Shown here in pieces: positions 883 to 42,991 of a stretch of 42,991 nucleotides of DNA (positions are counted from its first letter, which is position 1; every line of letters begins with the position of its first letter). The position numbers and the translations under genes are program-made. Origin of the DNA: a virus. Below the pieces are notes generated by a model, which was not told the DNA's origin, did not search any database, and saw nothing but the letters and a program-made list of their open reading frames with translations. The stretch is taken from positions 1-42,991 of IMG/VR virus record IMGVR_UViG_3300020034_000037, one strand, 5' to 3'.

Positions 883-1191
883 TTACGGCGAGGAGTTGGA
901 CGTCTGCTTTCCTGGTAAGGATTTGCGCACCTTGCGCCCATGAGACTTTCTCACTACAGTCTCTCTCCTACGCCCAGGAGAACCCCCGATGACCTTCCCC
1001 AGGAACACACCCAGCTCCACGCCGCAGGCCTCCGCGCAGGCCCGGCACATAGAGATGGTGAGGCCCCAGCTGCCGAGCTCGACGTGCCTCACCCACGAGT
1101 CGTCTCTGCCGATCTTGTCGGCCAGCTCTCGCGGGCTCAGCCCAGCTGCGATCCGGAAGTGGCGTACCCGTCTGGCTGAATCTGGAAGCAT
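883..1191 (-). CDS. XRE/Cro-CI family transcriptional repressor (prophage repressor candidate)
   Basis: 102 aa with an HTH_3-type domain at about residues 7-62 (RHFRIAAGLSPRELADKIG, then a recognition-helix region D-D-S-W-V-R-H-V-E) and a short basic C-terminal tail. There is no LexA/CI-like peptidase domain, so induction cannot be by RecA-stimulated self-cleavage of this protein. It is transcribed away from the regulator at 1270. No Shine-Dalgarno precedes the ATG at 1191. Instead a -35 (TTGACA, 1228-1223) and -10 (CATGAT, 1205-1200) place the transcript start at about the ATG, as for lambda cI. An operator palindrome sits in its promoter spacer (1204-1216) and another inside its own 3' end (941-953). 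It is the most likely protein to bind those palindromes. Confidence 0.75.
   Translation of the reverse strand: MLPDSARRVRHFRIAAGLSPRELADKIGRDDSWVRHVELGSWGLTISMCRACAEACGVELGVFLGKVIGGSPGRRRETVVRKSHGRKVRKSLPGKQTSNSSP
941..953. promoter_or_regulatory. Operator palindrome TGAGA-CTT-TCTCA inside the repressor gene
   Basis: A perfect 5+3+5 palindrome matching the other TGAGA-NNN-TCTCA sites. It lies within the repressor coding sequence. On the minus strand it is followed by CATGGG, resembling the -10 position in the switch promoter, but no good -35 precedes it. It could be a looping site, a roadblock or a leftward promoter operator. Confidence 0.6.
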
Positions 1192-1199
1192 AGTGAGAC

Positions 1200-1228
1200 A
1201 TCATGAGAGCTTCTCACGTACTTGTCAA
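1200..1228 (-). promoter_or_regulatory. Repressor promoter with operator in the spacer
   Basis: Leftward -35 TTGACA (1228-1223), 17-bp spacer, -10 CATGAT (1205-1200). The perfect operator TGAGA-GCT-TCTCA (1204-1216) fills the spacer, with a half site TGAGA at 1194-1198 just beyond. The expected transcript start falls at about 1192, next to the ATG at 1191, predicting a leaderless, autoregulated repressor mRNA. Confidence 0.65.
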
Positions 1229-1862: not shown

Positions 1863-2018
1863 ATGAGCAAGGACGTGGTGGAGCTGGCCCGGAAGCTGGA
1901 GCGGCTCCGAGAGGTGGACATCGAGGCCTACGAGCGCCTGAGCCGGAAAATAGACGAGTATCTCGTTGAAAGTATTCGTGCGCCCGGAGACGTGAGAGAA
2001 TCTCATCATCGCGCTTGA
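1863..2018 (+). CDS. Small helical protein of unknown function
   Basis: 51 aa from ATG 1863, preceded by GGAGGG at good spacing. A GTG at 1812, overlapping the previous stop, would give 68 aa. The sequence is charged and helical (MSKDVVELARKLERLREVD...). Its last codons (1993-2005) contain an operator palindrome, and its stop overlaps the -35 box of the next gene's promoter. It is not recognised. Confidence 0.5.
   Translation: MSKDVVELARKLERLREVDIEAYERLSRKIDEYLVESIRAPGDVRESHHRA
1993..2005. promoter_or_regulatory. Operator palindrome TGAGA-GAA-TCTCA
   Basis: Perfect 5+3+5 palindrome of the regulon type, lying at the 3' end of the small gene and just upstream of the promoter for the gene at 2051. 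Confidence 0.7.
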
Positions 2019-2050
2019 CTCGGTGAGAACCTCATGAGAGACTCTCATGC
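2015..2050 (+). promoter_or_regulatory. Repressor-type promoter with tandem operators for the gene at 2051
   Basis: -35 TTGACT at 2015-2020 lies 36 nt before the ATG at 2051. A short operator variant TGAGAACCTCA (2024-2034) abuts a perfect palindrome TGAGA-GAC-TCTCA (2035-2047), and the start codon follows three bases later. The -10 (GAGACT, 2038-2043, 17-bp spacing) is poor by the sigma70 consensus. The layout matches base for base in spacing the promoter at 40651-40616. Confidence 0.6.
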
Positions 2051-3190: not shown

Positions 3191-4023
3191 CGACGACAGC
3201 GAACTTCACAGCTGACCAGATGGAGCTAATCAAGACGACCATCTGTCGGGGTTCCACCGACGACGAGTTCAGGCTGTTCATGACCGTTTGCGGTCGGCTC
3301 GGGCTTGACCCATTCGCTCGCCAGATCTTCCCGGTGAGGCGCTGGGACAGCCAGGCCAACCGCGAGGTTATGTCCATCCAGACCAGCATCGACGGCTACC
3401 GGCTCGTCGCCGAGCGGTCCGGCAAGTACGAGGGCCAGGTTGGGCCGCTGTGGTGCGGCAAGGACGGACAGTGGCGCGACGTGTGGCTCGATAGCGAGCC
3501 GCCCGCGGCAGCCAAGGTCGGCGTCTACCGCAAGAACGCGCGCGAGCCGCTGTGGGCCGTGGCTCGCTGGTCGAGCTACGCGCAGACGAAGAAGGATGGC
3601 TCGCCGACGAGCATATGGAAGCGCATGCCCGACCTCATGCTAGCGAAGTGCGCCGAGTCGCTGGCTCTGCGGAAAGCGTTCCCGGCTGAGCTGAGTGGCG
3701 TCTACACCGCAGAGGAGATGGACCAGGCGCAGGTTTTGGACGCGCGGCTAGAGGCGCCCATCGTCCCCATTCGGCCCGCGCTCGCTCCGCACGAGCAGGT
3801 CATCGACGTCATTGACGAGCAAGGTCCTCCGCCGATCACGCAGACGCTCGAGGAGAAGATCACCGTCGCGGCCTCGCTCGAGGGCCTGGGCAAGCTCCTG
3901 CCCGAGTTGAGGGCGGTGAAGGACGAAGCCGACAAGTCGCGCCTGCGCGACGTCTACTCGACGGTGCGCAAGCGCCTCATCGCCGGGTACGCCAGCCAGC
4001 TCAAGGGCGAGGTGCAGTCGTGA
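3187..4023 (+). CDS. bet: RecT/Bet family single-strand annealing recombinase
   Basis: 278 aa, close to family length. The sequence shows the Bet/RecT signature: a start with [16 protein letters not shown], then [17 protein letters not shown], then [22 protein letters not shown] followed by a W-C-x-x-DGxWxDVW stretch. In the family this protein binds single-stranded DNA and anneals homologous strands, working with a 5'-3' exonuclease; the PD-(D/E)XK nuclease at 4816 is its likely partner. Residues after about 180 are less conserved. The start ATG overlaps the previous stop (ATGA). Confidence 0.9.
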
Positions 4024-4655
4024 AGATCCTCAGCCGATGGAACTCGAACACGGTCCTGTTCGAGGACGATAGCCCCACCCAGCGAGAGACCGTGATCGCA
4101 GCGGTCCTGCGCGGCGCCAACCTGCGCGGCGCCAACCTGCGCGACGCCAACCTGCGCGACGCCAACCTGCGCGACGCCAACCTGCGCGACGCCAACCTGA
4201 GCGGCGCCGACCTGAGCGACGCCAACCTGCGCGACGCCAACCTGCGCGACGCCAACCTGAGCGACGCCAACCTGCGCGGCGCCAACCTGCGCGGCGCCAA
4301 CCTGAGCGGCGCCGACCTGAGCGGCGCCAACCTGCGCGACGCCGACCTGCCCACCTTGGTGCGCGTCGAGAATCTGGACCGCAAGATCCTCGGTGCCATC
4401 GAGGCTGGCGGCGCGCTGGAGATGAACACGTGGCACACGTGCAAGACGACGCACTGCCGGGCGGGATGGGCGATCAACCTGGCTGGGCCGGCGGGTGCGG
4501 TCCTGGAGGACATCTACGGGCCCGCGGTCGCCGGCGCGCTGATCTACGCGGCGTCCCGACCGGACAGGCCGATCCCCGACTTCTACGCGACGACCGAGGA
4601 CGCTCTCGCGTCGATCCGCGATGACGCGGCCGAGGACACGGAGGTGCAGTCGTGA
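4020..4655 (+). CDS. Pentapeptide-repeat protein
   Basis: 211 aa from the GTG at 4020 (GTGA overlap with the recombinase). Residues 30-109 are sixteen uninterrupted pentapeptides of the form L-(R/S)-(G/D)-A-(N/D), enough for four coils of a right-handed quadrilateral beta-helix. A C-terminal domain of about 100 aa follows ([15 protein letters not shown]...[15 protein letters not shown]), an arrangement I recall from other phage pentapeptide proteins. Some family members (Qnr, MfpA) mimic DNA and bind gyrase, but nothing here proves that role. The repeat DNA is nearly identical unit to unit, suggesting recent expansion. Confidence 0.85.
4107..4346 (+). repeat. Sixteen 15-bp tandem repeats encoding pentapeptides
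   Basis: Sixteen units close to CTGCGCGACGCCAAC or CTGAGCGGCGCCGAC, with few substitutions and no silent drift. They are in frame, so copy number can change without breaking the gene. Confidence 0.95.
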
Positions 4656-8600: not shown

Positions 8601-9067
8601 CCTCGCCGTTCCTCAGCAGCGCCGAGGCAGCGCAGTACCTCGGCATGAAGACCTCGAGCGGCGTGCGGCAGGCGGTGCTGGCCGGCCGGCTGCGGCCCGA
8701 CGGGTACACGCGCGGCTACAAGTTTCGCCAGGAGACGCTCGACGCGTACCTGCGCCAGGAGCTGGAGAAGCATGAGCATCGAGCAGGTCGGTCCGCGGAA
8801 GTGGCGGGTGAGGGTGCAGTACCGGGATCCGAGGACGGGGCGGAGCCGAAGCCTCGAGAGGATCGTGGACGGCTCGCGCCGAGAGGCCGCCGCCAAGGAA
8901 GTGGAGCTGCGCGGGCGCGCGAAGAGCGCCGGCGAGCGCAGGCCACGGCAGAAGCTCCGGACCTTCGCACGCTCGTGGCTCGCCTCCAGGGTGGGGTCGC
9001 TCAAGCCCAGCGTCGCCCTGAAGTACGCCACCAGTCTCGATCGGCACGTGCTCCCCGCCCTCGGTGA
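8597..9067 (+). CDS. Excisionase-like HTH protein (HTH_17/MerR-like)
   Basis: From GTG 8597 (GTGA overlap). Residues about 3-55 (FLSSAEAAQYLGMK...VRQAVLAGRLRPDGYTRGYKFRQETLDAYLRQ) are a classic excisionase/HTH_17 domain. The gene sits immediately upstream of the integrase, as xis genes often do. The frame stays open to 9067, giving 156 aa and overlapping the integrase gene by about 296 nt. The extra Arg/Ala/Gly-rich tail has no domain character and may be incidental. Confidence 0.7.
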   Translation: MTSPFLSSAEAAQYLGMKTSSGVRQAVLAGRLRPDGYTRGYKFRQETLDAYLRQELEKHEHRAGRSAEVAGEGAVPGSEDGAEPKPREDRGRLAPRGRRQGSGAARAREERRRAQATAEAPDLRTLVARLQGGVAQAQRRPEVRHQSRSARAPRPR

Positions 9068-9860
9068 CCTGTACCTCGACGCAATCACGCACACCGACGT
9101 GCAGGACTACGTCAACGCGCGCGCGGCGGCGTCGGCGGGGAATACGGTGCTCAACGAGCTGCGCCTGATCCGGACGATCTCCCGCGACAGCTTCGCGGAT
9201 GGCGCTGCACCCAGGCACTGGGGCGACCGCGTGAAGCCTCCCACCATCCAGGGCTACTCGGAGGAGCGGCCCAACATGCTCACCGCAGACCAGCTTGGCC
9301 TGATGCTGGCGAAGGTTCCCGAGCAATGGAGCCTGCTGGTCGCGCTGATGGCGTTCACCGGCCTACGCTGGGGCGAGGTGAGCGCGCTGAAGTGGGGCGA
9401 CGTGGACTTCTACAGCGGAGAGCTCCGGATCCGGCGAGGGAACTGGAAGGGCCGCGAGGTGGCCGCACCCAAGACCGAGCGGAGCCGGCGGAAGGTGCCC
9501 ATCCCGGCCGCTCTGACCAGCCAGTTGATGGAGGGGACGCCAGAGGTCGAGCGGACCGGGCGGACGGCCGAGGTGCTCGTATTTCCCGCGCGCGCCGGCG
9601 GGCTCCACAAGGGCACGCCCCTGCGCAAGGTCCTGCAGCAGGCGTGCGCGGCCGCGGATGTCCCGGTCATCACGCCCCATGGCCTGCGCCGGACGTTCAA
9701 CGATCTCTTGAGGCGCGTCGCGGACAAGGAGGTGGCGAAGGCGATCATCGGGCACACCACCGACGCGATGCACTCGCACTACTCGCGGATCGACAGCGGC
9801 GAGAAGGCGGAGGCGACCCGTCGAGTCGAGGAGCTGGTGGGAAGGAAGGGAGAGGAATGA
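8772..9860 (+). CDS. int: Tyrosine-family site-specific integrase
   Basis: 362 aa from ATG 8772. An N-terminal arm-binding-like part (residues 1-60) and a core-binding SAM-like domain (about 63-150) precede the catalytic domain. Catalytic residues can be read: R199 (TGLRWGE), K234 (PKTERSRR), H303 and R306 (HGLRRTF), H328 (IGHTT) and the nucleophile Y337 (HSHYSRI). It would recombine the phage attP at about 10944-10988 with a host tRNA-Cys. The start overlaps the excisionase frame, and the stop overlaps the next ATG (ATGA). Confidence 0.93.
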   Translation: MSIEQVGPRKWRVRVQYRDPRTGRSRSLERIVDGSRREAAAKEVELRGRAKSAGERRPRQKLRTFARSWLASRVGSLKPSVALKYATSLDRHVLPALGDLYLDAITHTDVQDYVNARAAASAGNTVLNELRLIRTISRDSFADGAAPRHWGDRVKPPTIQGYSEERPNMLTADQLGLMLAKVPEQWSLLVALMAFTGLRWGEVSALKWGDVDFYSGELRIRRGNWKGREVAAPKTERSRRKVPIPAALTSQLMEGTPEVERTGRTAEVLVFPARAGGLHKGTPLRKVLQQACAAADVPVITPHGLRRTFNDLLRRVADKEVAKAIIGHTTDAMHSHYSRIDSGEKAEATRRVEELVGRKGEE

Positions 9861-10942
9861 GCGCGAAGTCAACGATAGAGTGGACGGACGCGACCTGGAA
9901 CCCGGTGCGCGGCTGCTCGCGGGTGAGCGAGGGCTGCCGCAACTGCTACGCCGAGCGCGTGGCGGCGCGGTTCGCCGGCCCGGGCCAACCGTACGAGGGG
10001 CTCGTGCGCCGTCCGAGCACGGCCAATGGACAGACGGAGCCTCGCTGGAACGGCGAGGTGCGCTTCGTGCCCGGCCGCCTGGCCGACCCGCTCCGCTGGA
10101 AGAAGCCGCGCCGCGTGTTCGTGAACTCGATGAGCGACCTATTCCACGAGCGCCTCAGCGACCAGGAGATCGCCGCCGTGTTCGCGGTGATGGCTGCGGC
10201 GGACCACCACACGTTCCAGGTGCTCACCAAGCGCCCGGAGAGGATGCGCCAGTGGTTCGGCTGGCTCGAAACCTCTGCCGACATCGGACGGTGGCACGGT
10301 GCCCGGGCGGCGCTGAGCTACGCAGCCCAAGTGATCGGCAGCGCCCACGGCGTGAAGGTCCCCGCTCCGCCCGCCATCTACGGCGTCCTGTGGCCTCTGC
10401 CGAACGTCTGGTTGGGCGTCTCGGTGGAGGACCAGACCACCGCTGACGAGCGCATCCCACTCCTGCTCGATACGCCCGCCGCCGTCCGGTTCGTGAGCTA
10501 CGAGCCTGCGCTCGGGCCGGTCTGCCTTTCCGACCTCCATGACGGCTCCGGTGGCGTCATCATGCCGCTAGTCGGGCTGCACTGGGTCCCGACCGGGCAG
10601 GGCATGAAGCTCAGCGGCGGAAAGGGACCGCGCCTGGACTGGATCATCGCTGGATCGGAGAGCGGCCCCGGTGCGCGCCCCGCCGAGCTCGGGTGGTTCC
10701 GATCGGTGCGCGACCGATGCGCCGCTGCCGGCGTCCCGTTCTTCTTCAAGCAGTGGGTCGGCGAGCGCGGCCTCACGCCGAACCACCTCGGCGTCCACCA
10801 CGACGGGACCCCAGGTCGCAAGGTCTCCCTCCCCATCCTCGACGGCCGCCAGCACGTAGAGTGGCCGGCTGAGCACCTCCATCACGAGACAGAATGCAGC
10901 GGGAGTGCAGCGGACGACGAATACGGAGGTGGAAATGAGTAG
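9857..10942 (+). CDS. DUF5131 (phage Gp37/Gp68) family protein
   Basis: 361 aa from ATG 9857 (ATGA overlap with int). The opening STIEWTDATWNPVRGCSRVS and later FVNSMSDLFHE, VLTKRPERM and WLGVSVEDQ match the Gp37/Gp68 phage family. Cysteines C20, C27 and C30 (C-x6-C-x2-C) recall the radical-SAM-like cluster of spore photoproduct lyase relatives, but the reaction is not known. The gene lies between int and attP, and its last codons contain the left 20-bp attP direct repeat. Confidence 0.85.
   Translation: MSAKSTIEWTDATWNPVRGCSRVSEGCRNCYAERVAARFAGPGQPYEGLVRRPSTANGQTEPRWNGEVRFVPGRLADPLRWKKPRRVFVNSMSDLFHERLSDQEIAAVFAVMAAADHHTFQVLTKRPERMRQWFGWLETSADIGRWHGARAALSYAAQVIGSAHGVKVPAPPAIYGVLWPLPNVWLGVSVEDQTTADERIPLLLDTPAAVRFVSYEPALGPVCLSDLHDGSGGVIMPLVGLHWVPTGQGMKLSGGKGPRLDWIIAGSESGPGARPAELGWFRSVRDRCAAAGVPFFFKQWVGERGLTPNHLGVHHDGTPGRKVSLPILDGRQHVEWPAEHLHHETECSGSAADDEYGGGNE
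10895..10914 (+). repeat. Left attP direct repeat (putative integrase arm-type site)
   Basis: The 20-bp TGCAGCGGGAGTGCAGCGGA is identical to 11081-11100. It is itself two TGCAGCGG boxes 11 bp apart, one helical turn. It lies inside the 3' end of the DUF5131 gene, 30 bp from the tRNA-derived core. Confidence 0.8.
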
Positions 10943-12205: not shown

Positions 12206-12783
12206 GCGCGCCGTACAAGCCGGGCGGGATGCGCCGGTTCCGCCTGGCCAGGGCGCGCGGAGGTCCTCGTACATGCGTGGCGCAGGGAGTCGTGTTCTGG
12301 GACGGGACCGTGGTCTTGCGCTGGCTGGGCAACGACGCATCAACGATCACCTTCACGTCGCTGGCTACGATGGAGACGGTCCACGTCCACGACGAAACGT
12401 GGATCCGATGGGAGGATTTCTGCTGCTTCGTGTGCGGCACGGAGTGCGGCCCTGCAGTCGGACCGGGGTGGTGCAGCGCGTGCGGCGCTACGTGGGACGA
12501 GCCAGCGTCCATGCCCGAGCCGGCGCCATCCGCGAGATCGTGGAGAGCGAAGACGACAACTGCGGAACCAGAGCTCGAAGCCGAGAACCTCAGACGGCGT
12601 GGCCGCATCACCGATCTCGAGGGCGAGATCGCGATCTTCCAGACGGTAAACGCCGAGCTCGAGGAAGAGAACGCCCACTTCCGAGCGGCTGCCGCCGAGC
12701 TGGAGGACGACCCGACCGCGGAGATCGACGAGGCGGACCGCCAGGCCGGCAGGCGCCGCGCGGCGAGGAAGAGGACACGATGA
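12202..12783 (+). CDS. Zinc-ribbon plus coiled-coil hypothetical protein
   Basis: 193 aa from GTG 12202. A beta-rich N-terminal part is followed by CCFVCGTEC...CSACGATW (residues about 73-100), a likely zinc ribbon. A leucine-rich coiled coil (LEAENLRRRGRITDLEGEI..., about 125-170) and a basic tail follow. Unknown function. The stop overlaps the endolysin start (ATGA). Confidence 0.55.
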   Translation: MSAPYKPGGMRRFRLARARGGPRTCVAQGVVFWDGTVVLRWLGNDASTITFTSLATMETVHVHDETWIRWEDFCCFVCGTECGPAVGPGWCSACGATWDEPASMPEPAPSARSWRAKTTTAEPELEAENLRRRGRITDLEGEIAIFQTVNAELEEENAHFRAAAAELEDDPTAEIDEADRQAGRRRAARKRTR

Positions 12784-13307
12784 TGATCGCCGACTGGGCC
12801 CGGCGCTACTTCGCTCCGGTCCTCGACAACCGCATGGGCACGACCGGCCCCTCTCCGCTCGGACTGCGCGCGCTCGAACTGGCGCGCTCCCAGATCGGGC
12901 GCGGCGAGTCGGGCCGCAACAACGAAGGTCCCGACCTGGACCGGTACCGCATGGACAAGCACGGCCACGTCGGGCCCGCCGGCGCGTGGTGCGCCGCATT
13001 CGGCTGCTGGTACCTGGAAGGCGCCGGCGCCGTCTTCAAGCGCAGCCACAGCGCGAAGACGCTCTTCGCGAACCTGTTGAAGGCCGGCGCGCGGAAGGTC
13101 GCCGAGCCGGCGCTGGGCGACTTGTCGCTCTGGCACCGCGGCGTGGCCGGCGCGCGGACGGGTCACTGGGGGATCGTGTCCGCGCCACTCGACGGGTCCG
13201 CCTTCAAGACGATCGAAGCGAACCGCGGTGCTTTTCCGAGCAAGGTGCGCGAGTACCCGCACGAGCTGGGCGAGGCGCTGCTGCTCGGGTTCGCGAGGCT
13301 GCCGTGA
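12780..13307 (+). CDS. CHAP-type endolysin
   Basis: 175 aa from ATG 12780; a second ATG follows directly. The CHAP/NlpC-like core reads ALELARSQIGRGE, GAWCAAFGCWY with catalytic C71, GHWGIV with H129, and TIEANRG with E146 and N148. It would cut peptidoglycan peptide bonds or amides. No signal peptide, so it needs a holin. Unusually for this genome it is in the rightward operon, away from the leftward late genes. Confidence 0.78.
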   Translation: MMIADWARRYFAPVLDNRMGTTGPSPLGLRALELARSQIGRGESGRNNEGPDLDRYRMDKHGHVGPAGAWCAAFGCWYLEGAGAVFKRSHSAKTLFANLLKAGARKVAEPALGDLSLWHRGVAGARTGHWGIVSAPLDGSAFKTIEANRGAFPSKVREYPHELGEALLLGFARLP

Positions 13308-13505: not shown

Positions 13506-13973
13506 ATGAAGCGAGCGATTCTGGTCCTGCTGTTCTTGTTCCCCCTGCCCAGCTGCGGCTTCGACGAAGGAGGTGACGACGACGAGATGAGCGAGTGCGC
13601 CGACGGCGCGTGCGAGATGGACTACGGCGGAGAGCTGGCCGGTGCCGAACGCGATCAGGCGCCGGACCCAACAGCGGAACTGAGTCCCGACGAGCTGCCA
13701 ACGTTCGACTGGAAGCCGGACACCGCCGCCGTCTGTGGCACCCAGTGCACCAGTATTGGGGGTAACTGCTGCTTCGCAGGCACGGGCGGCAACGGCATCT
13801 GCTGTGGGGCCGGTGGAATGGCGGGGAGGGACGTCTGTCTACCCACGCAGTGGGGGCCCATGTGCTGTGCGTGCATCATCCCATCAGGGACCGGGTGCGG
13901 GGATCCGCACTACTGCGGCTTGCACTGCTCCTCCATCGACCCCGAAACCGGAGAGTGCATCGGCTACCACTAG
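13506..13973 (+). CDS. Cysteine-rich lipoprotein (candidate lysogenic conversion gene)
   Basis: 155 aa from ATG 13506, with GAGAGG 8 nt upstream; a TTG at 13500 is in frame. The N-terminus MKRAILVLLFLFPLPSCG is a lipoprotein signal with lipobox L-P-S-C, so the mature protein should be lipid-anchored at C17. An acidic linker leads to a C-terminal domain (about 75-155) with over a dozen cysteines (CGTQC, NCCF, ICCG, MCCAC, GLHCSS). Its stop overlaps that of the opposite-strand gene at 13970 (CTAG). It is separated from the operon by two hairpins. Candidate roles are surface modification or superinfection exclusion; neither is shown. Confidence 0.7.
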   Translation: MKRAILVLLFLFPLPSCGFDEGGDDDEMSECADGACEMDYGGELAGAERDQAPDPTAELSPDELPTFDWKPDTAAVCGTQCTSIGGNCCFAGTGGNGICCGAGGMAGRDVCLPTQWGPMCCACIIPSGTGCGDPHYCGLHCSSIDPETGECIGYH

Positions 13974-14937: not shown

Positions 14938-15159
14938 CTACTTCCGCTGGCGATCGCGCAGCTGGCGGGCCTGCTCGGCGAGATCCTGAGCGGCACGGAG
15001 ACGGTTGGCCTCGGCGCTGATGGTGGCCAGCTCTCGGGCCGTGCGTTCCGCCTCCGCCTTCTGCTTGGCCGCCTCGGCCTTGTGCTTCTGCGCGCGCCAG
15101 GTGGACCATGCGCCGTACGCGGTCAGCACGCCCTCGATGATATGGGTCCAGTCCGTCAC
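14938..15159 (-). CDS. Small coiled-coil protein
   Basis: 73 aa from ATG 15159 (ATGA overlap with the upstream gene). Residues about 25-70 are Ala/Lys/Glu-rich coiled coil (HKAEAAKQKAEAERTARELATI). It could pair with the membrane coiled-coil protein at 15156. Unrecognised. Confidence 0.55.
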   Translation of the reverse strand: MTDWTHIIEGVLTAYGAWSTWRAQKHKAEAAKQKAEAERTARELATISAEANRLRAAQDLAEQARQLRDRQRK

Positions 15160-15650
15160 TTCGCTCCAGGGGTGGCTGCTGCGGCTGCAGCGGGTGTGGG
15201 CGGTAGCGGCTCCTGCACCTCGGGCGCGACCGGAGCCGGGCGCGGCGCCACTCGAGCGGAGCGCCGGCCGAGCAGCTTGTCGATCCGCCGGCGCTCGGTC
15301 TCCAGGTCCTTGCGGGCGGTGTCGAGGTCCTGGCGCAGCGCAACCACCTCGTCAGCGGTCGCCTCGAGCTTCTCTCGCGTGGCCTGGTAGCCGGCGCCTG
15401 CCTCGACCTTGGCCGTCTTGGCGAGCTTCGCGCCGTTCTCGCCGAGCTCGGTGGCTTCCTCGGCCGTGGTCTTCGCCTCGCAGCTGTCCACGCGGCTCCA
15501 GACGGCGGTCATCAGAGCCAGCGCGAGGCCCACAACCATGCCGTTGATCTTCTGCTTGGTGCCGGGGTCGATCCCGAGCGTGACGGGGGCGGTCCTCGAC
15601 CGCGCGGGCGGGGCTTCGGGTAGCGCGATGCTGGGATCGGTGTCGCTCAC
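15156..15650 (-). CDS. Membrane-anchored coiled-coil protein
   Basis: 164 aa from GTG 15650. A cytoplasmic N-terminal part is followed by one transmembrane segment (GMVVGLALALMTAVW, about 37-51), a coiled coil (GYQATREKLEATADEVVALRQDLDTARKDLETERRRI) and a proline/alanine tail. The topology resembles i-spanins (Rz-like), but identity is not provable here. It diverges from the HNH gene. Confidence 0.5.
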   Translation of the reverse strand: MSDTDPSIALPEAPPARSRTAPVTLGIDPGTKQKINGMVVGLALALMTAVWSRVDSCEAKTTAEEATELGENGAKLAKTAKVEAGAGYQATREKLEATADEVVALRQDLDTARKDLETERRRIDKLLGRRSARVAPRPAPVAPEVQEPLPPTPAAAAAATPGAK

Positions 15651-26411: not shown

Positions 26412-29400
26412 TCAGTAGACCCGGCTCTCTGCGACCGAGTAGTGGGTGCGCTGGACGCCGCCGGTGAGGATCAACTCGGTGAGCTCGAAGCTGGCGCCGA
26501 ACTGGCCAGTCGGCTCGACGTCCTCGAAGCGGAAGCGGACCGCCTCGCACTCCTGCCCCACGTGGATCTGGAACTGGTACGCGGTGTCGTTCTCGCCACC
26601 GTAGGGCCCGGCGCCGTACGCACCGTCTCCGTAGGGGGCGGTGACGCGCGCCTCGAGCGGGTCCACCACAATAGGCACGCCCGTCCAGCCGTCCTCGAAG
26701 TCGAAGCCGATGAAGACGCGCAGCTGATGCGTGGACAGGAACTCGCCGACCACGGTCACCCACCACAGGAACTGCCAGCCCTGCATGTGGCCTGCGAGCT
26801 TGAGCCACGCCGTCTCCATGCCCATGCGGATCTGGCTGTTGCTGTCGCGGTAGATGGCGGGCGTCTCGGTCCAGACCTGCCCGTCGTTGCGGAGGTAGAA
26901 GTACTCGCCGTCTACCACCACCGCGTCCGAGCCCTCGTGGTTGGTGAAGACCGACCACTGGTCGAACAGGTAATCGTAGAGCAGCGTCTTGCCCTCGTCG
27001 GTGAGGAACCGGATCTGGGTCCGGTCCTCGATTAGCGAGGTGGCCACGACGGCCTGCGAGTTGAACCGCTCGACGGGCGCGCCCACGTAGTTGACCGAGC
27101 GGTCGCGCCCGAGCATGTAGATGCCCTTCAGCGACTGGAACATCACGCCCACCGGCGTGTAGCCGAGCGAGTCGGGCGAGACGCATCCCACGTCGCTGGT
27201 GATCAGCTCCGGTGACGAGAAGCCACCGCCGACGTCGGGGTTGGCGAACGGGCCTGATCCGTTGAAGGCGAAGATCGCCGTCTCCTTGAAGACGATGACG
27301 ATGTCGTCCATGACGATGAGCCCGTTGATGTCGCCACCGAACGGATCCACGTCCACCGACAGGAGCGGTGTCGCCTCTGCCGCGAAGCCCTCGGACAGCT
27401 CCTGCGAGAAGTAGACGCGCTGCGCCTGCGAGGAATCGACCATGAACAGGCGGTTCTTCCCGCCCGCGATGAGCCGGACAGCGCCGAGCGGGTCGTTCGC
27501 CACGATGCCGCCGTTGGTGTAGAGCGGCTCCTGCTTGAGCAGCGTCGCGTCATCCATCCCATCGAAGAACGTCACGGTGTCCACGAGCGGGTCGTTGGCG
27601 AGGTAGCCGTTCACCTGCCCGGCCGTGGTCGGATCGAGGCTGGCCACGCGCCCGAACAGCGACGCATCGCCGTCGAGGCTGCGGTACACGCCGATGCGCA
27701 TCCCGGGCTTGGTGGTCCACCGGTAGGTGGGGATCGTGACGATGACCCGCCTCGGCCCGCCGGTCACCACGACGAGCACCGCCGGCGACACAGGCCCGCG
27801 CTCCACCTCGCCGTTGGCGAGCGTGTTCTCGTAGCAGACGACGTAGCCGTAAGTCCCATCCGCCAGGCCCGGCCCGGTGGTCACCGGATCGAGCACCGGC
27901 GTCGCGATGTCGTCGGGCCCGTAGTGGAACCCCGCCTCCTGCACGCGCTGTCCGTCGTACGCCTGCAGGAGCCCGCCGGCGATGTACAGCGTCTTGCCGA
28001 GCTGCGCCGAGCGGAACGCGTCGGGGGAGAAGAAGTCCAGCGACACGCGCCGGATGCCCTTCTCGGTGAACACGTCGCCGTCCCGCGACTCGACGTCGGT
28101 CACGTAGATGGCTGCGAAGCGGACCGCGCGCCCGGCCGGCCCCACCTCGTCGCTCATGGTCGGAAGGTGCGACTTGACGATCTGCCCACCCGCCAGACCG
28201 GGTAGGAAGCGGGCCACGACCAGCCCATCGGAGACGCGCTGGGTGTAGTAGGTGCGGTAGAGCGTGGAGTCGTGCATCGTGTGCACGTAGGCCTCGCCCT
28301 CGTCGAGGAACGGCTCGGATCCGAGCACCAGCCCGCGCTGCAGGCGCGACTCGAGGAGGGTGAACAGGGCCGCGTTGCTGTCCACGAGGAACATGCGGAC
28401 CTGGTCCACGGTCCCGAAGTCCTCGCTCACCACGCGGATCTCGCGGTACCCGGCGTCGCTGTCGTCCCGCAGGAATACGCACGCGATCTTCGCGGCCGCA
28501 CCCCCGTCGATGCCGCGCGACACGAACTCGGGCGCCAGGTCGTAGTCGAGCATGACGTACTGCTTGGACGCTGCAGCCCAGACGACCGCGATCCGACGGT
28601 CCGTCGCGACGGCCACCGTCTTGTCAATGGCCACGCCCAGTGAGTTGTTGGGCGCCTCGGAAAGCACCACGGGGATCGGGAGGCCCAGCCCGGCGCCACC
28701 GATCGTTCCCTGCTGGTGGACGTAGGCCACGGAGATCTCGCCATCCGTGTTGCGCCAAGCGATCACCGCCTTGACGTCGTCGGTGTCCACGTCGTAGAGC
28801 GGCAGCGCCCCGTCGATGTTCGTGAGGAGGATCGTCTCGGTCGCCGCCGTCGGGTTGGACGGGTCGATGCGCCAGACGCGGATCTCCTGCGACGCGGTGC
28901 GCACCCAGTAGACGTGGAGGAAGACGCCGACCGCGTGGACGCGAGGGCGCTCTCCGCCTGCATCCACCTGCAGCGGGGGCACGATGGCGCGCCCGGTGTA
29001 GTCGTCGAGCACCGAGTACCAGACGCCGCCTCGGCTGTCCTCCCACGCGTACACGGCGATCCCGTTCAGGACCGCCATGTCTGCCATCGTCTGATCGCTG
29101 CCCGTCTTCGCGACCGCCTCGTGGTCGCAGATGACGCTCTGGACGTCGCCGGCCTTGATCCACGCGCTGGCGTCGTCCACGAACGAGAACGCCTCGTCGT
29201 TGCTGAACGCCACCAGCTCGTACTGGCGCCTACCCAGCGCCAGAGGCTGCGGGAGTGGCTCGTCGGAGCCGAGCACGAGAGACCCCAGGTCCTCGTAGCC
29301 GCCGCGCTTCACCAGCGATATCGCCTTGGTGAACACCGCGTTCTCGAGGGCGAGCAGCTTGCCTGGCATGACCCCCTTGCGGTCCTGCTTGGTCTCCACG

Positions 29401-29447
29401 CCTCCAGCGAACTGGACGATCACGTTTTGCTCGGCCAGCTCAGCCAT
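26412..29447 (-). CDS. Tail nozzle / beta-propeller structural protein (P22 gp10-like position)
   Basis: 1011 aa, beta-rich throughout with repeated strand-turn units (VAVATDRRIAVVW, FLVDSNAALFTLL, NRLFMVDSSQAQRVYFSQ, GLIVMDDIVIVFKETAIFAF), typical of a propeller-like nozzle or tail-needle-base protein in podoviruses. A C-terminal domain (about 900-1011) has a jelly-roll look. It lies between the tail-fibre-like gene and the ejection genes. The assignment rests on size, context and strand pattern. Confidence 0.65.
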   Translation of the reverse strand: MAELAEQNVIVQFAGGVETKQDRKGVMPGKLLALENAVFTKAISLVKRGGYEDLGSLVLGSDEPLPQPLALGRRQYELVAFSNDEAFSFVDDASAWIKAGDVQSVICDHEAVAKTGSDQTMADMAVLNGIAVYAWEDSRGGVWYSVLDDYTGRAIVPPLQVDAGGERPRVHAVGVFLHVYWVRTASQEIRVWRIDPSNPTAATETILLTNIDGALPLYDVDTDDVKAVIAWRNTDGEISVAYVHQQGTIGGAGLGLPIPVVLSEAPNNSLGVAIDKTVAVATDRRIAVVWAAASKQYVMLDYDLAPEFVSRGIDGGAAAKIACVFLRDDSDAGYREIRVVSEDFGTVDQVRMFLVDSNAALFTLLESRLQRGLVLGSEPFLDEGEAYVHTMHDSTLYRTYYTQRVSDGLVVARFLPGLAGGQIVKSHLPTMSDEVGPAGRAVRFAAIYVTDVESRDGDVFTEKGIRRVSLDFFSPDAFRSAQLGKTLYIAGGLLQAYDGQRVQEAGFHYGPDDIATPVLDPVTTGPGLADGTYGYVVCYENTLANGEVERGPVSPAVLVVVTGGPRRVIVTIPTYRWTTKPGMRIGVYRSLDGDASLFGRVASLDPTTAGQVNGYLANDPLVDTVTFFDGMDDATLLKQEPLYTNGGIVANDPLGAVRLIAGGKNRLFMVDSSQAQRVYFSQELSEGFAAEATPLLSVDVDPFGGDINGLIVMDDIVIVFKETAIFAFNGSGPFANPDVGGGFSSPELITSDVGCVSPDSLGYTPVGVMFQSLKGIYMLGRDRSVNYVGAPVERFNSQAVVATSLIEDRTQIRFLTDEGKTLLYDYLFDQWSVFTNHEGSDAVVVDGEYFYLRNDGQVWTETPAIYRDSNSQIRMGMETAWLKLAGHMQGWQFLWWVTVVGEFLSTHQLRVFIGFDFEDGWTGVPIVVDPLEARVTAPYGDGAYGAGPYGGENDTAYQFQIHVGQECEAVRFRFEDVEPTGQFGASFELTELILTGGVQRTHYSVAESRVY

Positions 29448-29475
29448 TGCGCCCCACGTGAGAAGTGCTCATGAT
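29447..29475 (+). promoter_or_regulatory. Repressor-type promoter for the embedded rightward gene
   Basis: -35-like TTGCGC (29447-29452), 17-bp spacer, -10 CATGAT (29470-29475). The spacer holds TGAGA-AGT-GCTCA (29459-29471), one mismatch from the operator. The stretch ACGTGAGAAG..CTCATGAT matches the repressor promoter at 18 of 20 bases. The start would fall at about the ATG at 29482. Confidence 0.6.
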
Positions 29476-29481
29476 TGGCTG

Positions 29482-29718
29482 ATGAAGTTCGCCCCCGTGT
29501 CCGCTGTCTTCCTTCTCGTCCTCGTGGTGGTCCTCGGCATGAAGTGGCGCGGGGCCGCCGCCGACCTGGAGCGACTGGAGGCGGGCATCCAGGACACCAT
29601 CAGCGACTCGCGGGACTGCACGGAGCGCACAAGGGCGGTGGCCGGCAAGCTCTTCGACGCCTGCGAGGCCCTGCGCGACAAGGGCCTCAGCCACCCGTCC
29701 TGCGCCGCGATCGAGTAG
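29482..29718 (+). CDS. Membrane-anchored small protein on the opposite strand (moron candidate)
   Basis: 78 aa from ATG 29482. Residues 6-20 form a strong hydrophobic segment (VSAVFLLVLVVVLGM), followed by a helical, charged periplasmic part with three cysteines (DCTERTRAV..., FDACEAL, HPSCAAIE). It lies in the only gap between late genes, reads against them, and has its own promoter resembling that of the repressor. There is no Shine-Dalgarno, so leaderless expression is expected. Lysogeny expression and superinfection exclusion are plausible inferences. Confidence 0.68.
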   Translation: MKFAPVSAVFLLVLVVVLGMKWRGAAADLERLEAGIQDTISDSRDCTERTRAVAGKLFDACEALRDKGLSHPSCAAIE

Positions 29719-29723
29719 ATCGC

Positions 29724-30758
29724 TCACGGGATGTCGGTCCCCACGGTCACGGTGCACACCTTGCCGCCGACCCCGGGAGTTGAGATCTCGAGGATGTAGT
29801 GGTTGTTGTCGGTTCCGACCAGTTCTGTGAGCCCGGTCGAGGTCAGGTTCTGGCGCGCCGTCCCCGAGCTCGAGGGCAACGTCTGGATCACGGTCGAGGT
29901 CCCGTCCGTGTTCAGCCGCATCAGCGTCGCCACCATGGTGGAGACGGGCACGACGCGAACGGCTACCGCGAGGATCCGCTCCCCCTCGTCCAGGATGATC
30001 GGGACCTGGAGTACGTCCGGTGCGGCCGTGGTCACCCACTCGCCGGCCCCTGTGAAGTTGCCCGTGCCCGACGTGGGCTGTCCGGCACAGGCTGGGATAT
30101 GGCGCACCCGCTGCGATCGCTTCGGGCCGGTCGCGGTCACCACGCCTGTCGCCGAGATCGCCAGCGACTGCGCCTGGGCCGGCAGCGCCGCCGGGAAGAT
30201 GAAATCGTAGCTGGCTGCCAGTGCGTTGGGGCTGCGCAGCTTCACCGCGGTGGTGATTCCGCTCGAGCCCTGGAACAGGCGGATGTCCGAGCTGTCGATG
30301 AAGGCGCGGTGGTTGGCGGCGCGCAGGAAGTTGTAGATCGCGGTGCCGCTGTCGAAGTTGGCCTGAGAGCCGCCGGTACCGTAGTCGCCGGTGAAGCCGC
30401 CCAGGAGCGCCGCGTTCAGGCTGGCGCCGCTGGTGAGCTGGACGAGCACGCCGCCAGACGTCTTCCAGTAGAGCTCGAAGTCGACGCTGGAGACGAACAG
30501 GCACCGCGAGAGCGCCGCGATGGTGGTCGGGTCGATCGCGGCCATGCCCAGCGCGCGGGCCTGGGTGAGCGAGAAGTTGGCCAGCGGCAGGTCCGCGTTG
30601 ATGTTGAGGCCAGCCACCGGGATCAGAACGCCCTGCCCGCTCGAGTGATCGTGCGCATCGAGGGTGTCCAGTGACGCGTTGATCTCGGTCCCCCAGGTGC
30701 CGATGGAAGCACCGTTGTCCGGCTTGGTGAGGACCATGTTGGGAGTCGAAGTGCTCAT
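29724..30758 (-). CDS. Tail fibre / appendage protein
   Basis: 344 aa from ATG 30758. It opens with the common phage fibre N-terminus pattern (NMVLTKPDNGASIGTWGTEINASLDTLDAHDHSSGQG), an attachment and trimerisation region. A middle section (RAANHRAFIDSSDIRLFQGSSG) and a C-terminal beta domain (WVTTAAPDVLQVPIILDEGERILAVAV) follow. It lies after the adaptor genes and before the nozzle protein. A receptor-binding or fibre role is likely. Confidence 0.7.
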   Translation of the reverse strand: MSTSTPNMVLTKPDNGASIGTWGTEINASLDTLDAHDHSSGQGVLIPVAGLNINADLPLANFSLTQARALGMAAIDPTTIAALSRCLFVSSVDFELYWKTSGGVLVQLTSGASLNAALLGGFTGDYGTGGSQANFDSGTAIYNFLRAANHRAFIDSSDIRLFQGSSGITTAVKLRSPNALAASYDFIFPAALPAQAQSLAISATGVVTATGPKRSQRVRHIPACAGQPTSGTGNFTGAGEWVTTAAPDVLQVPIILDEGERILAVAVRVVPVSTMVATLMRLNTDGTSTVIQTLPSSSGTARQNLTSTGLTELVGTDNNHYILEISTPGVGGKVCTVTVGTDIP

Positions 30759-39781: not shown

Positions 39782-40129
39782 TCACGACGGCTGCTCCGTG
39801 TCGGAGCGCGGTCCGTTCACAAGCGAGGAGTGCGCCTCGCCGATGAGCTTGCGCCGCCACTGCCTGAGCGCTTCCTCGAGGTCCTCGTCGGACAGCTGCG
39901 AGGTTGCCTTGCGCTCTCGCTCTGCGATCTCGGACTCGAGCGCGAAGGTGCGAGCTGCCTGCGTCGCACCCATGATGCTGGTGTTGGCTACCCGGTAGTC
40001 GAGAGCGCCGTTGAGGACGTTGAGGACCACGACCTCGAGCATCTTGCGAATGTCACGCAGCGAGCCGAACCGGACGATTTCCGTTGACTTCTGCTCTGAC
40101 AGGAACGCGGAGGGGGGGAGGTCGGCCAC
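39782..40129 (-). CDS. Helical protein, first gene of the late operon
   Basis: 115 aa from GTG 40129. Sequence is helical and charged (IRKMLEVVVLNVLNGALDYRVANTSIMGATQAARTFALESEIAERER), with no cysteines. Its place at the head of the packaging genes makes a small terminase subunit or regulator possible. A -35 box 37 nt upstream and lack of a Shine-Dalgarno suggest leaderless translation. Confidence 0.55.
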   Translation of the reverse strand: MADLPPSAFLSEQKSTEIVRFGSLRDIRKMLEVVVLNVLNGALDYRVANTSIMGATQAARTFALESEIAERERKATSQLSDEDLEEALRQWRRKLIGEAHSSLVNGPRSDTEQPS

Positions 40130-40439: not shown

Positions 40440-40615
40440 CAGCCCACCTTCAGGCGAGCGCCGAGGGCGATCAGCTCTGCCGCGGTCTGCTCGGTGACGC
40501 GAAGTGCGCGATAGCCGGGGAAGACCGCGTGGATGGAGGTCATGTGGATGGAGATGACAAGATCCCTGGCAGCGCCGAGCTTGTCGAGAACCTGGTCGGT
40601 GTTCGAGGTGTCCAT
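40439..40615 (-). CDS. Small hypothetical protein directly controlled by an operator
   Basis: 58 aa from ATG 40615, three bases after a perfect operator. Sequence MDTSNTDQVLDKLGAARDLV... ends ELIALGARLKVG. No family recognised. Being first under a repressor-type promoter suggests a regulatory or early role. Confidence 0.55.
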   Translation of the reverse strand: MDTSNTDQVLDKLGAARDLVISIHMTSIHAVFPGYRALRVTEQTAAELIALGARLKVG

Positions 40616-40651
40616 GCGTGAGAGCTTCTCACGTCTCTCTCACGACGTCAA
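40616..40651 (-). promoter_or_regulatory. Repressor-type promoter with operator
   Basis: -35 TTGACG (40651-40646) lies 36 nt before ATG 40615. The perfect palindrome TGAGA-GCT-TCTCA (40619-40631) sits just before the start, and a half site (40638-40642) lies 11 bp upstream, the same arrangement as at 2015-2050. The 17-bp-spaced -10 (GAAGCT) is weak. Confidence 0.62.
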
Positions 40652-42474: not shown

Positions 42475-42991
42475 CGGTCCCTTCCCCCGTCGCCCAAGAG
42501 GTGCAGACGAAACTCCGAATCGGGCATCACGTTGGGCTTGTGCCCGTTGACCTTGACCAGCGCGGCATCAGCAGCGAGCGCCTGCGCGAGGTAGTCGGCG
42601 AACTTCTCCGGCCCGAACAACGTAGCGGGCCGGAGGTACTGGTCCATCTTCGGGTCCTCAGCCCACTCGTTCGCTCGGTCCCAAACGACCTTGCGCAGGT
42701 CCATCTCGCTGTGCCCGCCGCGTAGGAGGCGGAGGATGAGACGCGCGTGGGTCGGTGTGGTCGGCCGGTAGACGCGCCCGCTGCGCTCACTCAGCTTGCC
42801 CAGGATGGCGGCAATGGACGCCGCCTCGGAAGCGGTTGGGTCGCTCGGCTTCGCCTTCTTCCGACCAGGCGAGGATCTCGGCTGCGCAGCAGCCGGCCCC
42901 GCGGCGAGCGAAGACACACTCCCTTCTTTCTGATCTGCAGAAGCAGAAGCAGAAGCAGAAGCAGAAGCAGAAGCAGAAGCAGAAGCAGAAG
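42471..42991 (-). CDS. Replisome organizer, C-terminal part (continues from 518 across the junction)
   Basis: C-terminal part of the gene that begins at 518. After (Ser-Ala)9 and a basic spacer, LSERSGRVYRPTTPTHARLILRLLRGG...VWDRANEWAEDPKMDQYLRPATLFG matches the conserved phage replication C-terminal domain (Phg_2220_C type). A GTG at 42917 could start a shorter product, but the frame is open through the junction to the coupled start at 518. The stop overlaps the next start (ATGA). Confidence 0.87.
   Translation of the reverse strand, partial: SASASASASASASASASADQKEGSVSSLAAGPAAAQPRSSPGRKKAKPSDPTASEAASIAAILGKLSERSGRVYRPTTPTHARLILRLLRGGHSEMDLRKVVWDRANEWAEDPKMDQYLRPATLFGPEKFADYLAQALAADAALVKVNGHKPNVMPDSEFRLHLLGDGGRDR
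42865..42991. repeat. Terminal direct repeat, right copy
   Basis: Identical to bases 1-127; see the left copy. It should be removed once to give the circular genome of about 42,864 bp. Confidence 0.93.

Follow-up and report, generated by a model that had tools for sequence, protein, structure and literature searches.

A putative envelope moron with a putative repressor operator in its promoter, at a cassette exchange site of an uncultured temperate phage

Phage morons, of which HK97 gp15 is one example, are among the closest described counterparts of the locus analyzed here, as is lambda rex, which is expressed from the repressor promoter. Transcriptomics of Salmonella prophages describes a position antisense to lytic genes as characteristic of accessory loci, and reports that accessory genes lying antisense to lytic genes with promoters of their own are expressed in lysogens (PMC7067206). 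In phage T5, the gene for the receptor-blocking lipoprotein Llp adjoins a receptor-binding gene, and the T5 relative BF23 has an unrelated Llp with the same job (PMC4728585).

The present locus is a 78-aa gene in the window, by which is meant the whole 42,991-bp stretch analyzed (IMG/VR virus record IMGVR_UViG_3300020034_000037). Like STMMW_20121 of ST64B (PMC7067206), it is an accessory gene among virion genes, on the opposite strand, with its own promoter and variable presence. Unlike such morons, it has a leaderless promoter carrying a putative immunity operator, no terminator was found for it, and in the window's relatives a single junction is used repeatedly for exported genes. With the T5 and BF23 Llp proteins it shares a small, predicted exported product, a place beside adsorption genes and the occurrence of unrelated sequences at the same place in relatives; however, T5 is not a temperate phage, a lipobox is missing from the window protein, and the genes beside it encode only putative receptor-binding proteins. 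Exclusion lipoproteins of the TP-J34 Ltp type (PMC3952083) are prophage-encoded surface lipoproteins, as are most of the relatives' cassette products, but they act in a Gram-positive host under different regulation, and no sequence relation to them was seen. As in lambda rex and bstA (PMC7067206 for bstA), an accessory gene appears to be linked to repressor-promoter control, although rex/BstA-type genes are reached by read-through from the repressor gene whereas the window has a separate near-copy promoter approximately 28 kb away.

The 78-aa gene and its phage

Approximately 126 bp are common to both ends of the window (positions 1-126 and 42,866-42,991), indicating a near-complete genome. 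This direct terminal repeat terminates in a GCAGAA microsatellite and suggests either that the genome is complete, in circular or permuted form, or that assembly halted at the microsatellite. The window encodes a tyrosine integrase (8772-9860, plus strand), RecT and an HTH repressor (HTH_31; 883-1191, minus strand), a homologue of which is similarly placed in the nearest relative, and the phage is therefore considered temperate. An integrase was found in the window and in seven other phages with a filled junction. In the search for the host, a Deltaproteobacteria MAG contig was the one bacterial match, and no cultured phage relative was found. A DUF5131 gene (9857-10942, plus strand) lies directly 3' of the integrase gene and a pentapeptide-repeat protein (4020-4655, plus strand) is encoded directly after RecT. 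A second exported gene (13506-13973, plus strand), near an endolysin-like gene (12780-13307), encodes a 155-aa Cys-rich lipoprotein-like protein (LPSC) and is possibly another accessory gene.

Virion genes form a leftward block from approximately 38.7 kb down to 16.1 kb. Within this block the 78-aa open reading frame (29482-29718, plus strand) occupies a 276-bp gap between t26 (26412-29447, minus strand), encoding a 1011-aa virion protein judged nozzle-like from its size and gene order, and t29 (29724-30758, minus strand), encoding a 344-aa fibre-like virion protein. The ATG at 29482 is 35 bp from the start codon of t26, and the gene ends at 29718, 5 bp short of the stop codon of t29. No intrinsic terminator was detected in 29300-29900; the convergent gene is only 5 bp away. 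GC content by codon position (0.67/0.47/0.95 on the plus strand) and a codon model identify this as a genuine coding gene, confirming the claim of an earlier note, made from the sequence alone, that a gene is read here against the late operon.

AlphaFold2 without an alignment modelled the 78-aa protein as a single helix (mean pLDDT 78.5, pTM 0.37), in which an N-terminal hydrophobic helix runs on into a long helix. There are three cysteines, at residues 46, 61 and 74, with none in the first 45 residues, and the protein has no lipobox, and so no signal peptide with a lipobox Cys of the Llp/Ltp/Cor type. We infer a membrane topology in which the N-terminal helix would serve as the single anchor of a small protein with its helical domain probably outside the cytoplasm. 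No homologues were found in IMG/VR or cultured phages, nor among 58 genomes of one phylum in a search run without a positive control, and there was no PHROG, Pfam, PADLOC, cultured-phage or BFVD match. A structure search with the single-helix model returned nothing meaningful; compared with known exclusion proteins, the protein showed neither sequence nor fold relation and matched no exclusion family.

The t29-t26 junction is a cassette exchange site

When the 1011-aa flanking protein was used as query, 78 viral loci were obtained, and a junction tree was built from 60 flanking proteins from 60 phages, the window included. The spacing of the two flanking genes is bimodal, being either near zero or 187-2,851 bp. 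Of the 60 junctions, 29 are empty, exported genes on the opposite strand occupy 20 (window included), and the remaining 11 contain other inserts. The 20 with opposite-strand genes all fall within one supported clade of 31 rows, of which 8 are empty, and at least five changes of junction state are forced on the tree. The opposite-strand cassette genes are largely unrelated to one another; the two nearest relatives (flank 70-73% identical) carry two lipoproteins unrelated mutually and to the window protein. A lipobox lipoprotein is encoded on the opposite strand at 17 of the 20 loci and on the same strand at none. Certain cassette families recur in more distant phages (L032/L038/L046/L053; L006/L034/L049; L004/L007). 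The gene is thus present in one phage and replaced or missing in close relatives. The earlier note had proposed a moron at 29482-29718, a proposal well supported by a junction that is empty or differently filled in relatives and by the integrase and repressor of the phage, and we regard this gene as very probably a moron.

Members of the L032, L038, L046 and L053 cassette family share D[WY]xQTR-like, YFA and LPxxWR motifs, and no Pfam or PHROGs match was found for this family. The cassette lipoprotein at L005:5505-5942 (minus strand) contains a HEVLHWALDESGVHSDASH stretch with a zinc-metallopeptidase-like motif and had no Pfam match. Same-strand, often glycine-rich structural-looking proteins are encoded at junctions L036, L060, L065, L069, L087, L088 and L098.

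The export signals of the cassettes point to the envelope as their site of action, and the occupancy of the junction suggests a docking site for genes that modify the cell surface during infection or lysogeny. Superinfection exclusion, the example given in the earlier note, is plausible from the location together with the type of protein, and the position of T5 llp and the antisense accessory loci of Salmonella make it the leading guess; as the function of the 78-aa gene it is, by this analogy, a tentative proposal with somewhat under an even chance of being right. A somewhat unlikely alternative is lysogenic conversion that benefits the host otherwise than by exclusion, through a surface property, a protease, or resistance to predation or stress. 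It would accommodate the diversity of the cassettes, which include the HEVLH-motif lipoprotein of L005, Cys-rich lipoproteins and 321-335-aa lipoproteins, and the finding that no cassette matches a defence model, but the virion-gene neighbours and the constant envelope targeting would, by analogy, favour roles in phage entry.

A leaderless promoter with a putative repressor operator

The common cassette promoter layout consists of a -35, 17 nt, a -10, approximately 6 nt and the ATG. Cassette starts were picked by ATG and signal sequence with the promoter ignored, and the best -35/-10 pair had its -10 located 5-7 nt upstream of the ATG at 17 of 22 starts, compared with 14% of 3,017 control ATGs (p 7e-11). 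Spacers are mostly 17 nt and Shine-Dalgarno-like motifs are few. A census of 22 genomes for a lipoprotein with a leaderless promoter, with thresholds chosen after the cassettes had been seen, yielded 11 genes, 10 of them at the t29-t26 junction, and the window's only match of any kind was the 78-aa gene. In a phage with an empty junction, a 203-aa lipoprotein gene elsewhere (G021:28593, minus strand) has the promoter TTGCGC-17-GAGGAT-6-start.

The 78-aa gene thus has, as far as can be read from its sequence, a sigma70-like leaderless promoter of its own with the layout repeated in relatives. This promoter (29447-29475, plus strand) comprises TTGCGC (29447-29452), a 17-nt spacer and CATGAT (29470-29475), followed after 6 nt by the ATG at 29482. 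It overlaps a putative operator of the phage repressor, TGAGAAGTGCTCA (29459-29471, plus strand), with one core mismatch (GCTCA) and an extended match over 29456-29475. Over this extended region ACGTGAGAAGtgCTCATGAT agrees with the repressor promoter core ACGTGAGAAGctCTCATGAT (minus strand, 1219-1200) at 18 of 20 positions, whereas in 100 simulated Markov genomes the best match per genome was 14.2 on average and at most 16. The match, including the CATGAT -10, and the operator in the spacer had both been reported in the earlier note; the coordinates are correct, the simulations bear the match out, and the operator is a one-mismatch TGAGA-N3-TCTCA whose register is that seen at the repressor promoter.

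When the window was scanned for the TGAGA-N3-TCTCA pattern, with gaps of 2-8 tried and at most one mismatch allowed, seven sites were found, every one with a gap of 3 nt, against 0.9 expected. Five were perfect (0.02 expected), four in the repressor/early region and one at the leftward early promoter, and the scan found no operators in the late operon interior besides the site at the 78-aa gene. The repressor promoter, TTGACA-17-CATGAT (1200-1228, minus strand), has its operator at 1204-1216 and 8 nt from -10 to ATG. The rightward early promoter, TTGACT-17-GAGACT (2015-2050, plus strand; leaderless ATG at 2051), has operators at 1993-2005 and 2035-2047, and the leftward early promoter, TTGACG-17-GAAGCT (40616-40651, minus strand; leaderless ATG at 40615), has one at 40619-40631. 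At both the 78-aa gene and the repressor promoter the operator falls within the 17-nt spacer and extends to the -10, whereas at the early promoters it lies over the -10/+1. When near-ATG promoters are ranked across 56 window genes, the top five are those of the repressor, early right, the 78-aa gene, 39782-40129 and early left, and four of the five (repressor, both early promoters and the 78-aa gene) carry the operator.

Since one-mismatch cores alone are expected approximately 0.9 times per genome, the significance of the operator at the 78-aa gene rests on the extended match. The usual cassette -10 is CAnnAT, often after CT, so that the resemblance to the repressor promoter is partly that of cassette -10 regions in general; and because CTCAnnAT is the ordinary -10 context of the relatives' cassette promoters, the evidence specific to this site is ACGTGAGAAG, the upstream arm by which the operator is made complete. 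The -35, TTGCGC, matches at only 3 of 6 positions and is weaker than the repressor's TTGACA, for which reason a strict E. coli-type sigma-70 scan fails this promoter, and the case for it therefore rests on the operator match and the comparison with relatives. No near-copies of the other cassettes' promoters were found elsewhere in their own genomes, and none of these cassettes carries an operator of its own phage, indicating that coupling to the repressor is peculiar to the window and no family trait. A palindrome in the L005 promoter, GCGGGCATGCCCGC, occurs only once and is not the operator of its phage; the operator there looks like ATGAG-N5-CTCAT.

On this sequence evidence the repressor would be predicted to bind at the promoter of the 78-aa gene. 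As the operator is positioned as at the repressor promoter, parallel expression in the lysogen is expected, and we consider it probable that the gene is expressed in lysogeny, as the earlier note supposed. The overlap of operator and promoter also means that bound repressor could silence the gene. Under an unlikely alternative, that of lytic conversion, the gene would be silenced in lysogens and switched on early after infection or induction, before the repressor accumulates or after it falls, protecting the infected cell by blocking a second phage as T5 Llp does. An operator overlapping a promoter usually represses that promoter, and operators of the same repressor sit on the lytic early promoters. 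Llp is likewise made in infected cells (PMC4728585). Set against lytic conversion are the register of the operator, which is unlike that at the early promoters and is that of the repressor promoter, which must work in lysogens, and also the core mismatch and the lack of an operator in other cassettes.

Proposed role in the lysogen

The account that we favour, with somewhat better than even confidence for the whole, is that of a repressor-linked envelope moron expressed in lysogeny, with exclusion as its leading candidate function. An accessory cassette would occupy the exchange site that separates two virion genes, where its own leaderless promoter would read the 78-aa gene against the late operon. 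With the operator placed as at the repressor's own promoter, the gene would be on in the lysogen alongside the repressor, which would keep its level steady, and after induction late transcription would run antisense to it. Its likeliest task would be to shut out competing phages by altering the envelope, either of the lysogen or of a cell just infected. The self-contained opposite-strand promoters make cassette genes independent of late transcription, during which they would be transcribed antisense, a pattern consistent with activity in the lysogen or just as infection begins. Against this account stand the failure to find a homologue or an exclusion-family match for the protein, the overlap of operator and promoter, the failure to find a downstream terminator, the weak -35, the lack of an own-phage operator in every other cassette and the absence from the window protein of the lipobox that most other cassettes have.

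A spanin or other lysis helper is very unlikely. The cassette lipoproteins of L034 and L049 match an Rz-like spanin PHROG (E ~0.001), and the window protein is modelled as a TM helix plus a long helix; however, the 78-aa gene lies opposite to the late operon, has its own promoter with a putative repressor operator and is missing from half of the relatives, and it stands alone among virion genes rather than as one of two spanin components. A better spanin candidate is encoded at 15156-15650 (minus strand), in late orientation near endolysin-like and holin-like genes, with a TM segment, a coiled coil and a Pro-rich tail. Least probable of all is that the promoter likeness is incidental and that the operator, which precedes the start codon of the large 26412-29447 virion gene by 12 bp, is a roadblock silencing the late operon in the prophage, like the stoperators known in cluster A mycobacteriophages, given a single site with exact spacer/-10 placement and a coding ATG 6 nt downstream, relatives that keep the promoter layout without the operator, and a late operon that holds no other operators.

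An extension of the favoured account, which we offer as a speculative possibility, is that the clade keeps a dedicated port for lysogenic conversion, where cassettes of a leaderless promoter and an exported protein, always against the late operon, would be swapped in and out at one junction. The window cassette would then have come under the immunity circuit through acquisition of a repressor operator, with the dose of the exclusion gene tracking that of the repressor. If true, one junction in an uncultured phage clade could be consulted, from sequence alone, as a directory of lysogenic-conversion genes that act on the envelope, and its comparison would provide a stream of unrelated small lipoproteins as exclusion candidates. 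The leaderless layout would be a simple rule to spot genes independent of the late operon, and the window operator would offer a direct way to learn whether the immunity circuit can govern a moron at a distance from its own region. Within the repressor region itself, the perfect operator at 941-953 occupies the 17-nt spacer of a promoter-like site, TTGCGC...TACAGT (933-960, plus strand), which reads rightward and is antisense to the repressor gene in its 3' part.
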